From Candidatus Gastranaerophilales bacterium (GTDB lineage Bacteria > Cyanobacteriota > Vampirovibrionia > Gastranaerophilales > Gastranaerophilaceae): a DNA stretch of 64,000 nt. The notes beneath the pieces were generated by a model. It saw only the letters and a program-made list of their open reading frames with translations, was not told the DNA's origin and did no database searches. This document shows, piece by piece, positions 1-24,396 of the stretch. The stretch lies in NCBI GenBank assembly GCA_944325175.1, contig CALUYZ010000001.1:1-64000 (forward strand), written 5' to 3'. Positions within the stretch are counted from its first letter, which is position 1. Each line of letters starts with the position of its first letter. A program made the translations under genes and the position numbers.

Positions 1-83
1 AAGTAATACTTCACATATTCTAATATTATCATTATTTTGTTTTGCCTTCAATGTATGGAGTAAGGCTTTATCCTTTTCAACTT
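1..83 (-). promoter_or_regulatory. 5' leader of a pseudopilin gene lying off the left edge
   Basis: This stretch aligns with 24140-24225, the leader of the pseudopilin gene 23126-24097. Both contain CTTCACATATT, CATTATTTT and a closing ATCCTTTTCAACTT or ATCCTTTCAACTTT next to the inverted repeat. By that alignment a minus-strand pseudopilin start codon should lie about 45 bp beyond position 1. The similarity is seen directly; the off-window gene is inferred. Confidence 0.55.
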
Positions 84-253
84 TGCACCAATTTGAGCAA
101 ATTTGATGCATGGGGTTAAAAGTTTTGTTGGTATAGGGTTTTTGACATGTGGAAAACAAAAATATTAAAATTTGCTGCTCTTGAATTAATGTGGAAATGG
201 TGATATATTGAGAAAAAAGGATGAAATGCACCAAGATTGCTCATTTTGGTGCA
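84..253 (+). promoter_or_regulatory. Invertible promoter segment 1, 170 bp, facing away from the off-window gene
   Basis: Two 27-bp arms, 84-110 and 227-253, are inverted repeats of each other (22 of 27 positions agree). Each arm starts TGCACCAA or its equivalent and ends TTGRTGCA; the shared centre of this pair is TGAGCAA. The interior carries TTGAAT (181-186), a 17-bp spacer and TATATT (204-209) reading rightwards. The right arm is followed by eight T, so it also looks like an intrinsic terminator. Homologous segments lie at 22785-22955 and 24226-24396. Confidence 0.75.
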
Positions 254-352
254 TTTTTTTTGGTTGAAAAAGCTCTTTATGTAAGAATAGCTAAGATAAT
301 AGGGTGGGTGAATATGTTGGGTGAGTGTGGATGTATACGGAAGATGAGATTT

Positions 353-377
353 TGTTGGGGTAGAAACCCCAACCTAC
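353..377. repeat. Short palindromic repeat, copy 1
   Basis: A hairpin of TGTTGGGG, a six-base loop and CCCCAACCTAC. Its reverse complement begins GTAGGTTGGG and ends CCCAACA, as does the repeat at 22983-23006, which lies in the opposite orientation. Both copies sit on the distal side of an invertible promoter segment. Confidence 0.6.
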
Positions 378-417
378 GAGGGTGGGGGGTAATGTTTTTT
401 GATGAAAAAAGGATAAT

Positions 418-937
418 GTGACAGAAGGTATGGTGGTGGAAAAGCTTTATTTTGGATGTATTAGGGAATCGGTTGCTGTTTTTTATAATCATTTGTGTGG
501 TTATGATAGTGATTTTAATTATTATGCGCAGAATAAAATGTGTGTGAATTTTGTTTATGATTTGAATGGGAAAGAAGGTCAAAATGAGGTGGGGAAGGAT
601 GTTGGGTTTATTACGGAAAAACCCTGTTGTGGTTGCGCAAATACCAAAGGGGAAATTAGGGGAAGCAGGTTTTCCTTTAGATAGCAGTGATGATAAAACA
701 ACAGATGCAAAAAGGTTGTGTGCTATGGTGAATGAAGATGCGAGAATGGCTGATAGGGATGAAATTGCCTCAATGGCAATAAACGGGAATTTGGTAAATG
801 TAACTGTGGGTGGAGTTTGGTCGAGTTCGGTTGTTGAGGCGGGACCAGCCAAAAATGCATGGATGCAACATTTTAGCGGGTACAGATGTCTTTTAGAGAA
901 AACAAGCTTTGGCGGTGTGTGGTGTGTTAGTAAATAA
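418..937 (+). pseudogene. Decayed pseudopilin gene, frameshifted and lacking its 5' half
   Basis: Two reading frames together match the C-terminal 60% of the intact pseudopilins at 21805-22761 and 23126-24097. Frame one (from 418) holds ESVAVFYN, KMCVNFVYDLNGKEG and VGKDVGFIT. Frame two (to 937) holds RKNPVVVA, ADRDEIASM, VWSSSVV and a closing WCVSK. The switch falls near 615-625, where the codons for the residues between GFIT and KNPVVVA are partly deleted. The type IV N-terminal methylation segment is absent, so no pilin can be made. It resembles a donor or relic copy of the family. It may be transcribed from the rightward promoter at 181-209 if the hairpin at 227-253 does not stop polymerase. 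Confidence 0.8.
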
Positions 938-18093: not shown

Positions 18094-18120
18094 TACACCA
18101 AAATCAGCCATTTTGATGCA
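18094..18120 (-). terminator. Hairpin terminator after the small LuxR-type gene
   Basis: On the minus strand an 11-bp stem (TGCATCAAAAT pairing with ATTTTGGTGTA, two G-T pairs) is followed by seven T. It sits about 50 bases after the stop at 18170. It resembles the arms of the invertible segments, but no partner arm exists nearby. Confidence 0.6.
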
Positions 18121-21804: not shown

Positions 21805-22761
21805 TTATCTTTTGATGCAACGAACAGAATTTGAAGCCGAACGAACATCATAGTATCTATAGCCGGTAGTAAAACTTTGATACCAAGCAAGCCCTGAAGC
21901 ACCTGATGATATAACCGAACTTGACCAAAAAGTGCCAGCTATTCCAAGAAGAGGTTCATTAACAAATAGTGACGCAAGCTCGTCCCTGTTAGGAAGTCTA
22001 AAATCTTCTCCTATGCTTTTGCAAGCTGCTGCTGCATCAACTGCATCGGCTGTATCTGAATATTGCGGTACTTTCCCATAATTATATATGTATGGTACAG
22101 GTGCCACAACGACAGGATTTTTATCATAAAAAGCGGTAATAAATCCAACATCTTTACCAACTTGATTGGGTCCTTCTTTACCATTTAAGTCGTATAAGAA
22201 ATTGACACACATTTTATCTTGCACAAAATGATAGCTCGATGAGTCTGAAGCGCAACGAGGATTATAAAACACAGCCACCGATTCCCCATTCACCGTTTCA
22301 AATGCTGCCGCCTTCGTATCAACCATGCTTCCGTCTTCAACTATCTCGTTATCAATCAATAGTTTTTCATTCAACTCGCTTATTTTTGTTGGAAAATCAA
22401 TTTCAGATTTCCCGTTTATTGTTGTAATTTTATTTGGCACCCCGCAAGCAGAAAGCTTATCCGCCCCACAAACGTTATTTATTTTGTAAACCTTAGAAAG
22501 TGCATCCAAAATAAAACTTTCAGCTGCCGTATCTTCTGTTGCCGTTCCTTCTTCATCGGTTTCAAATGTTCCATACCCACCCAACGTATTCATCTGCCCA
22601 ATCGCTTGCGCCATTCTGGCATGCAACGCCTTCTTCTGTGCATCCCAAGCTTTTTCGTTAACATTAACCAATAAACTCGGCAACGTAATCGCCGCCACAA
22701 TTCCAATAATCGCCAAAGTAATTAACACCTCAGCTAAAGTAAAACCTCTAAACTTTTTCAT
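21805..22761 (-). CDS. Type IV pseudopilin with lectin-fold (DUF1566-like) C-terminal domain, gene A
   Basis: 318 residues. The prepilin motif RGFTLAEVLITLAIIGIVAA predicts cleavage between G6 and F7 with the invariant E at +5, followed by the conserved NEKAWDAQKKALHARMAQAI helix. The C-terminal 80 residues (RLPNRDELASLF, FWSSSVI, AWYQSF, SVRC) match the DUF1566/Lcl type of C-type-lectin-like domain. The protein is probably a tip or minor pilin displayed on the surface. Its promoter lies in the adjacent invertible segment (22785-22955), here facing the gene, so it is predicted ON. GAAAGGAT lies about ten bases before the ATG. A paralogue lies directly upstream (23126-24097). Confidence 0.85.
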   Translation of the reverse strand: MKKFRGFTLAEVLITLAIIGIVAAITLPSLLVNVNEKAWDAQKKALHARMAQAIGQMNTLGGYGTFETDEEGTATEDTAAESFILDALSKVYKINNVCGADKLSACGVPNKITTINGKSEIDFPTKISELNEKLLIDNEIVEDGSMVDTKAAAFETVNGESVAVFYNPRCASDSSSYHFVQDKMCVNFLYDLNGKEGPNQVGKDVGFITAFYDKNPVVVAPVPYIYNYGKVPQYSDTADAVDAAAACKSIGEDFRLPNRDELASLFVNEPLLGIAGTFWSSSVISSGASGLAWYQSFTTGYRYYDVRSASNSVRCIKR

Positions 22762-22784: not shown

Positions 22785-22955
22785 TGCACCAATCTGTTTA
22801 AGTTTGGTGCATTTTAGGTCTTTTTATTAATATAGCATTGTTTTGGATTTTGTTCAAGGTTGGGAAAAGGGGCGGATGAACTTTTTAAGGGGTTAAAAAG
22901 TATTGTTATTATTAGATTTTCAATGGGTTGCAACAAACTTAAACATTTTGGTGCA
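22785..22955 (-). promoter_or_regulatory. Invertible promoter segment 2, 171 bp, in the ON orientation
   Basis: Arms at 22785-22811 and 22929-22955 are inverted repeats (24 of 27), sharing the centre TGTTTAA. On the minus strand TTGAAC (22852-22857), a 17-bp spacer and TATATT (22829-22834) point at gene A. Predicted transcription start is near 22822, giving a leader of about 60 bases that includes the proximal arm. The interior aligns with that of 24226-24396 only after reverse-complementing. Confidence 0.8.
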
Positions 22956-23125: not shown

Positions 23126-24097
23126 TTATTTCCTTAGACAGCGCACAGAGTATGCTGTAGAGCGGGCACTACGGTAACGGTGACCATTATTGAAGCCCTG
23201 ATACCAAGCTAACCCAGAAGCGCCAAGCGAAATAGCCGAGCTCGACCAATAGGGGCTAGTGCTTTCACCTAGGTTAATAAGAGGTGCATTGACAAAAAAC
23301 GAAGATAATTCATCTTTATCGGGAAGCCTTAGGTCTTCTCCCATAGTTTTGCAAGCTGTTGGCGCATCAGTTGCTTCTTTTGTTTCTGTATATTGTGGTA
23401 CTGTTGATGTGTAATCTGAACTATATGGAGTTGGTGCTACAACAACCGGGTTTTTGTTGTAAAAGGCTGTGATGAAGCCAATATCTTTACCAACTTGATT
23501 GGGTCCTTCTTCACCATTTAGGTCGTAAATAAAGTTAGCACACATTTTATTTTGAACATAATGATTAGCTGTTGTATCTGAACTGCACATTGGGTTGTAG
23601 AATACTGCTATTGATTCGCCATTCACTGTTTCAAATGCGGCTGCTTTTGTGTCAACTATATCACCGTCTTCGCCTTCATAGTGCACTCCGTTTAATAGCT
23701 TTGAATTTAATTCGCTCATTTTGGTTGGAAAATTTATTTCGGATGCGGCATTTAGTGTTGTGATTTTACTTGGTATGCCGCAAGATGAAAGTTTATCAGG
23801 TCCGCAAACGTTGTTTATTTTATAAACCTTTGATAGTGCATCTAAAATAAAGCTTTCAGCGGCGGTGTCTGTGGTTGCGGTTCCTTCATCATCTTCAGTA
23901 TAGGTTCCATAACCGCCTAGGGTATTCATCTGCCCAATAGCTTGTGCCAGTCTTGCATGGAGAGCTTTTTTCTGCGCATCCCATGCTTTTTCATTAACGT
24001 TTACAAGTAAGCTTGGTAAAGTAATAGCTGCCACAATCCCTATGATTGCTAAAGTAATTAATATTTCAGCCAAAGTAAACCCTTTTTTCTTTTTCAT
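23126..24097 (-). CDS. Type IV pseudopilin with lectin-fold (DUF1566-like) C-terminal domain, gene B
   Basis: 323-residue paralogue of gene A; the first 60 mature residues are nearly identical (KKGFTLAEILITLAIIGIVA, NEKAWDAQKKALHARLAQAI), while the middle and the last 40 residues vary. The C-terminal domain shows RLPDKDELSSFF, YWSSSAI, AWYQGF and SVRC. AGAAAGG precedes the start. The leader between ATG and the invertible segment at 24226 is about 130 bases and is shared with the sequence at 1-83. The promoter in that segment faces away, so gene B is predicted OFF in the cell or population sequenced. Readthrough from 24226 leftwards would need inversion. Confidence 0.85.
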   Translation of the reverse strand: MKKKKGFTLAEILITLAIIGIVAAITLPSLLVNVNEKAWDAQKKALHARLAQAIGQMNTLGGYGTYTEDDEGTATTDTAAESFILDALSKVYKINNVCGPDKLSSCGIPSKITTLNAASEINFPTKMSELNSKLLNGVHYEGEDGDIVDTKAAAFETVNGESIAVFYNPMCSSDTTANHYVQNKMCANFIYDLNGEEGPNQVGKDIGFITAFYNKNPVVVAPTPYSSDYTSTVPQYTETKEATDAPTACKTMGEDLRLPDKDELSSFFVNAPLINLGESTSPYWSSSAISLGASGLAWYQGFNNGHRYRSARSTAYSVRCLRK

Positions 24098-24225: not shown

Positions 24226-24396
24226 TGCACCAATTTGAGTGAATTTGATGCAATGGTTTAAAAATCGCACTATTTATTTGTTTCCGCCATTGAAAATGTT
24301 AAAAATTTTAAACTTTTTCCCTCTTGAACTAATTTAAAAACAATGATATATTGAGAAAAAGAAGATAAATGCATCAAATTCACTCATTTTGGTGCA
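24226..24396 (+). promoter_or_regulatory. Invertible promoter segment 3, 171 bp, OFF with respect to gene B
   Basis: Arms at 24226-24252 and 24370-24396 agree at 25 of 27 positions with shared centre TGAGTGA. TTGAAC (24324-24329), a 17-bp spacer and TATATT (24347-24352) point right, away from gene B and towards the phosphohexomutase gene. The distal arm followed by TTTTTG forms a terminator-like hairpin 18 bases after the -10 box. The flank next to gene B, ATCCTTTCAACTTT, is the same as in the other two segments. Confidence 0.8.

Follow-up and report, generated by a model that had tools for sequence, protein, structure and literature searches.

The capsule promoters of Bacteroides fragilis are reportedly flipped globally by Mpi, and the locus described here resembles that system in that short promoter segments lie between inverted repeats, one recombinase would serve many loci and surface structures are what is switched. 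It departs from it in that at least 72 copies act on one gene family, the cores are private to each locus and a T-run lies beside one arm. The fim switch is turned by the tyrosine DNA invertases FimB and FimE. Our candidate invertase, at 183 aa, falls in the same length class as NCBIfam's tyrosine-type DNA invertases, whose models have 198 and 200 positions, but it scores far below the invertase cut-offs (37–41 versus 221–222 bits) and, unlike FimB and FimE, would act on many loci. In Neisseria, pilin antigenic variation proceeds by gene conversion between pilS and pilE, the single expression site; a large and mostly silent pilin repertoire is common to both systems, whereas here each gene has one promoter of its own.

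The available text of PMC11892184 counts 181 invertons in a single Mitsuokella genome and puts the Bacteroidota median at 8.5, so copy number alone does not make the present genome unique. The accessible part of PMC6642488 already describes diversity-generating retroelements that target DUF1566/Lcl_C proteins, including templates with many variable repeats and targets that are putative pilins. The retroelement reported below has the same Avd, reverse transcriptase (RT), template repeat and adenine-biased C-terminal variable region in an Lcl_C-like domain as those; it differs in that its targets also have invertible promoters, and in that RT and Avd are encoded on opposite strands with the template between them. 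In Bacteroides, a retroelement diversifies the binding domain of tip pilins, as it does here, but those tip pilins belong to type V pili and ours are type IV-like pseudopilins, and coupling to invertons was not seen for the tip pilins in the accessible part of that review (PMC12632263). Going by the available text of these sources, there are precedents for invertons, for global invertases and for retroelements that act on DUF1566 and pilin targets (PMC11892184, PMC6642488, PMC12632263). The open-access full-text literature, a scope outside which most subscription papers fall, yielded no report of an inverton and a retroelement on one gene family and none joining a diversity-generating retroelement with Gastranaerophilales.

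The window is the whole stretch of DNA that was analysed, 64,000 nucleotides from a Gastranaerophilales draft genome of 2,017,861 bases in 52 contigs (89.1% complete), in which orientations are consensus calls. At its left edge, positions 84–253 form an inverton-type segment of 170 bp with 27-nt inverted arms. The gene-proximal arm (84–110, plus strand) carries the core GAGCAA at 95–100 and the gene-distal arm (227–253, minus strand) the same core at 237–242 on the minus strand. Between them lies a 116-bp invertible interior (111–226), whose promoter TTGAAT-17-TATATT (181–209, plus strand) reads to the right, away from a predicted gene on the left; as assembled, the interior is OFF for that gene. 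The distal arm, together with the adjoining T-run, forms a terminator-like structure facing the OFF promoter (223–261, plus strand; positions 223–260 fold at −17.3 kcal/mol) and was scored as an intrinsic terminator by a terminator scan. A sequence-only reading of this DNA had described a 170-bp segment with the same arms and this rightward promoter, all of which was borne out; it mentioned neither the T-run that adjoins the right arm nor the second promoter-like sequence, a fixed one, in the leader described below.

That reading counted the segment as a third invertible one, a number that has to be revised, since the genome holds at least 72 complete elements, this one included. In the window, the arm pattern with up to three mismatches gave 10 matches, all of them arms of three elements (0.00 expected from 100 dinucleotide shuffles). 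The other two elements accompany gene A (21805–22761, minus strand, 318 aa) and gene B (23126–24097, minus strand, 323 aa), both pseudopilins with N_methyl and Lcl_C regions. The gene A element (22785–22955, minus strand) is inverted relative to the others, with its promoter toward gene A (ON), and the gene B element (24226–24396, plus strand) is OFF. A lone arm-like site, TACACCAAAATCAGCCATTTTGATGCA, lies without a partner at 18094–18120.

Across the genome, the arm pattern with up to two mismatches matched 152 times per strand, against 3 and 1 matches for the reversed pattern; in a second comparison, the reversed control pattern gave 0 and 0 matches against 84 and 87. Seventy-two complete elements with arm starts 142–145 bp apart were assembled from the window and 39 genome stretches around matches, and because 8 unpaired arm-like sites were left out this figure is a lower bound. 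A promoter-like motif is present in all 72. Every one of the 69 elements with sequence beyond the gene-side arm is followed there by a prepilin gene, the remaining 3 being cut by contig ends, and the distance to that gene is 21–48 bp in 50 elements and 66–133 bp in 19. With inverted repeats around a promoter upstream of a gene, the family has the form by which promoter invertons are recognised. Seventy of the 72 elements have the promoter directed away from the gene (OFF) and 2 have it directed toward the gene (ON); these 2 are that of gene A and L071:1935, both with a short leader. By the strict motif, 66 pointed away, 3 toward and 3 were unscored; the unscored ones have TATAGT in the usual orientation and were settled by eye and by interior match, and L052:2183, whose arms are ambiguous, was re-oriented by its gene and is counted as pointing away because that gene sits on the other side. 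Anatomy, copy number, gene linkage and orientation bias are properties read from the sequence. The exact arm pattern occurred in only 4 of 58 genomes (the present one, G000, and its relatives G008, G004 and G003), a scan that used the exact pattern and so missed other arm types. Taken together, the surface genes behind flippable promoters seem to form a large, mostly silent wardrobe of surface proteins. We consider it very probable that 84–253 is an inverton, that it switches a pseudopilin gene immediately to the left of the window and that it belongs to a set of at least 72 serving about 103 Lcl_C pseudopilins.

The gene on the left is unreadable in this assembly because the first base of the window is also the first base of contig C1. 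C1 shares its first 77 bases, without a difference, with the end of contig C18, where another element with the same leader is found, so the assembler appears to have stopped at a repeat. The left flank (1–83) had been said to align with the 5' leader of gene B, and it does, at 72% over 83 columns, with other copies closer still (up to 97%). Read on the minus strand, it would be the 5' leader of the predicted pseudopilin gene, whose ATG is expected 45–51 bp left of position 1. All 32 homologues of the 83-bp leader that have further sequence run into a prepilin ATG 45–51 bp onward (31 by the strict motif, and that at L038 by a wider motif plus a protein match), which is strong indirect evidence for a pseudopilin gene at this place. 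Pilins cut at the ends of contigs C17 and C31 were considered as the off-window gene and rejected, as they have another type of N-terminal DNA.

The control of this gene may be less simple than its inverton suggests. Within the leader, on the minus strand, a fixed promoter-like sequence TTGAAG-17-TAATAT (23–51) faces the predicted gene from outside the invertible segment, and it is followed by the start of a dyad, GAAGTAtTACTT(C) (1–12, minus strand), which is cut by the contig edge and may be an operator. Such a sequence (TTGAA[AG]-17-TA[AG]TAT-like) lies outside the invertible part and faces the gene in 16 of 21 long leaders, with a dyad GAAGTA.TACTTC after it; inversion may therefore not be the sole control. 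The OFF call of the sequence-only reading accordingly stands for the invertible promoter, and for the gene itself it is uncertain because of this fixed sequence. One could go further and suppose that the long-leader genes, the one left of the window included, are governed by the fixed promoter and dyad, with the inverton doing little. The frequency of the promoter-like sequence and its following dyad speaks for this, as does the fact that both ON elements belong to the short-leader class. Against it, a simple promoter scan did not list the leader sequence, and long-leader elements retain their arms, matched cores and T-runs. We regard control by the fixed promoter as unlikely, though it is the most serious of the alternatives to switching by the inverton.

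The two arms of each element differ in what follows them. In all 72 elements a T-run (at least 5 T in 8) follows the distal arm, and in none does one follow the proximal arm, so that what the OFF promoter runs into resembles a terminator hairpin. Nine elements from G003 and G008 share this asymmetry. Hairpin strength varies, given distal-arm folds of −4.4 kcal/mol for gene A and −12.1 for gene B against −17.3 for the element at 84–253. The far-arm hairpin would, from these features, terminate transcription. This bears on the proposal of an either/or switch, in which the orientation called OFF would in fact be ON for a far-side gene. The first far-side ORF does read away from the element in 17 of 72 cases, 13 of them prepilin ORFs and among these the target gene of the retroelement; in 51 cases, however, it reads toward the element, and in 4 none was found. 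With a T-run at all 72 far arms, outward transcription should stop, which weakens the either/or proposal for the 13 elements with a divergent far-side pilin as well. We therefore hold it to be improbable and keep to a switch with one served side.

Whether the elements invert at all is a separate question, because the arms could be static repeats, only terminators or protein-binding dyads duplicated along with their genes. The far arm resembles an intrinsic terminator, the gene family has clearly expanded by duplication and 70 of the 72 elements share one orientation, all of which would fit that idea. What argues against it is the structure of the exceptions. Only the interiors of the two ON elements match the rest better when inverted (96.6% and 99.1%), and in both the outer half-sites are unmoved while the inner half-sites are swapped, the trace expected of a crossover in the arm core. 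The invertibility asserted in the earlier reading is thus backed by two cleanly inverted copies. Both orientations are seen across paralogous elements (2 of 72 inverted), each locus being in one state, and in G003 and G008 all nine elements whose two arms could both be seen are OFF (the diverged element L091 of G004 was excluded from the orientation and T-run counts of the relatives). Inversion is, on this pattern, presumably ongoing in this genome, and the element at 84–253 probably flips as well.

The arm cores are likewise hard to reconcile with static repeats. The 6-nt core occupies arm positions 12–17 and takes 11 forms across elements, and it is identical in both arms of 70 of the 72 elements, against a mean of 10.0 and a maximum of 23 in 20,000 shuffles, which ignore origin by duplication. 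In G003, G008 and G004, the core matches in 10 of 10 arm pairs, with four further cores. A terminator arm must fold on itself and need not match its partner, so that static repeats leave the identity of cores within elements unexplained. A core common to both arms and differing between elements should favour recombination within an element over recombination between loci. Neighbouring elements did not significantly avoid sharing a core (2 of 30 pairs alike, 3.8 expected, P = 0.23). Static repeats are accordingly, in our judgement, quite improbable, and we retain inversion as the reading of these elements. Non-autonomous MITE-like transposons, 170 bp long, bounded by 27-nt terminal repeats and carrying their promoter along as they spread, would also be short, numerous and inverted at their ends, but the 69 of 69 testable copies lying 21–133 bp before one type of gene, the fixed outer half-sites that tell gene side from far side, and cores that match within copies and differ between them make this extremely unlikely.

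To the right of the element at 84–253, the decayed pseudopilin noticed by the sequence-only reading is indeed present (463–928, plus strand, by protein match to gene B); it is an Lcl_C pseudopilin in two frames that lacks its N-terminal part, with out-of-frame pieces at 463–615 and 593–928 that match residues 160–210 and 207–321 of gene B. It is directly followed at 1065–1934 by a gene that we take to encode a sugar nucleotidyltransferase. Before the same following gene, the relative G002 has an intact Lcl_C pilin and G003 a different pilin, so the site has carried pilins in several relatives; G004–G006 have other genes before this anchor gene. The synteny of G002–G006 gives no view of the gene to the left. 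On C18, L056:1402–2370 repeats the pairing of an element with a decayed pilin and is 86% like window positions 75–420, which suggests that the decayed neighbour was duplicated together with its element.

The family served by these elements is large. Searched against the genome, the gene B protein matches 131 times, and 103 of these matches score at least 380 bits. Genes A and B score above the Pfam cut-off for N_methyl (class III prepilin leader), and their Lcl_C regions score below it (27.4 and 29.4 bits versus 34.9); this region is a divergent relative of the Pfam domain. A search of PDB sequences gave N-terminal pilin matches only, and a predicted structure of gene B with gene A was set aside for its mean pLDDT of 34.9. 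The pseudopilins are predicted to be displayed at the surface.

A diversity-generating retroelement was found at L037 (C2:110500–129500), where Avd and RT genes lie on opposite strands with a template repeat in between (L037:10456–12320). Avd matches Pfam bAvd above the cut-off (7.7e-14) and NCBIfam Avd below its cut-off (3.9e-12). The RT matches RVT_1 (E = 3.2e-16), its best NCBIfam matches being other RT classes, below cut-off; it contains the motif IGNLTSQ, which we presume to bear on assignment to the diversity-generating retroelement RT class. The Asn codons of the template coincide with the variable pilin sites, and across 85 genes the 11 AAY codons have a mean entropy of 3.36 bits versus 1.32 at the other 33. 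Substitutions in the 6 best variable regions fall on template A at 80 of 210 positions, on C at 18 of 222, on G at 10 of 198 and on T at 3 of 186 (31 of 606 for the non-A bases pooled). Enrichment for A at p < 0.001 was found in 20 of 87 family ORFs; most copies of the variable region have drifted, and those of the two ON genes have diverged, with 36 and 52 non-A mismatches of 101. The promoter of one element points at the freshest target of the retroelement (L037:12643–13614), which lies on that element's far side.

An invertase for the arms was sought among the recombinase matches in the genome (8 tyrosine and 3 serine), two of the tyrosine ones being XerC/XerD-like. The candidate, at C7:292–843 (L076), is a protein of 183 aa with a catalytic domain only (Phage_integrase, 1.4e-28), which scores 41 and 37 bits against the NCBIfam tyrosine-type DNA invertases, below the cut-offs of 222 and 221. 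In a tree of 14, it clusters with genes of G008 and G004 with 100/100 support, which places this clade of 3 recombinases in 3 of the 4 arm-bearing genomes; none was found in G003, an 85% complete and fragmented assembly. In the 5 other genomes of the genus, the nearest relatives reach at most 59% identity, and some other genera that lack these exact arms have homologues at 59–66%. The G004 recombinase is located about 1.2 kb away from that genome's only arm pair (L140). No repeat was found beside the recombinase at C7 of the present genome, where the gene is 291 bp from the contig end, or at C13 of G008. The FimB-sized tyrosine recombinase of C7 is likely the invertase, by association only, as judged from co-occurrence across 9 genomes.

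Three other recombinases were considered and passed over. That on C2 beside an element (L037:1284–2153) is XerD-like and has relatives at 8 other Gastranaerophilales loci without an inverted repeat or pilin, for which reason the adjoining element was judged incidental; that on C37 (L077) has a different repeat of its own 43 bp downstream; and the closest relative of that on C6 (L078) is in G006, a genome without such arms. Several other small recombinases of this family have inverted repeats with different sequences no more than 1.5 kb away (L077/L143, L139, L142, L208, L211 and L213), which supports the class as invertases and does not bear out the assignment to C7; at 17 of the 27 recombinase loci examined, some of them overlapping, no nearby repeat was found.

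These results can be drawn together in a mechanism. The FimB-sized tyrosine recombinase would act in trans on the 27-nt arms, each made of outer and inner half-sites of about 10 nt around the 6-nt core, and flip the interior. In the OFF state, the promoter would fire away from the gene into the far arm, meeting the hairpin and then the T-run; in the ON state, transcription would cross the gene-side arm, where there is no T-run, and continue into the ribosome site and gene. Separately, the retroelement would rewrite the lectin-like C-terminal segment of at least some pilins. The full picture is a two-layer receptor repertoire: about 100 pseudopilins, their lectin-like tips mutated by the retroelement, would mostly be kept silent by private invertible promoters that rest facing a terminator; a single invertase acting in trans would draw one or a few per cell, and a variable 4-nt core would confine each switch to recombination with itself. 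The DNA itself shows the two inverted copies with swapped half-sites, the matched cores, the T-run asymmetry, the template repeat and the adenine bias; the full picture we advance only tentatively, giving it a little less than an even chance. If it holds, about 5% of the genome (about 103 genes, each of about 970 bp, out of 2.0 Mb) is given over to a display lottery linked with targeted mutation, in a gut bacterium of a non-photosynthetic cyanobacterial line. The 72 natural variants would also offer a direct way to ask how the overlap sequence of a recombinase isolates many sites.

Several neighbouring observations concern other switches and RTs. On C37, L077:1435–3217 holds a 179-aa recombinase, a 216-bp inverted-repeat element of another arm type and a Stealth-family gene (PF11380, 2.5e-41); it is a second, single-locus switch, whose core matches within this element, as does that of its G008 relative, the two cores being different. 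At L139, L142, L208, L211 and L213, inverted repeats of own sequence, about 175–200 bp end to end, lie near small tyrosine recombinases, and the small recombinases of the relatives are possibly a family of invertases with private sites. L084:1261–3461 (C4) encodes a further RT, which contains IGFYTSQ; next to it is a 196-aa ORF whose end is lectin-like, so that this may be a second diversity-generating retroelement. L086/L087 (C6) encode adjacent RTs of 384 and 703 aa that are perhaps a defence pair.
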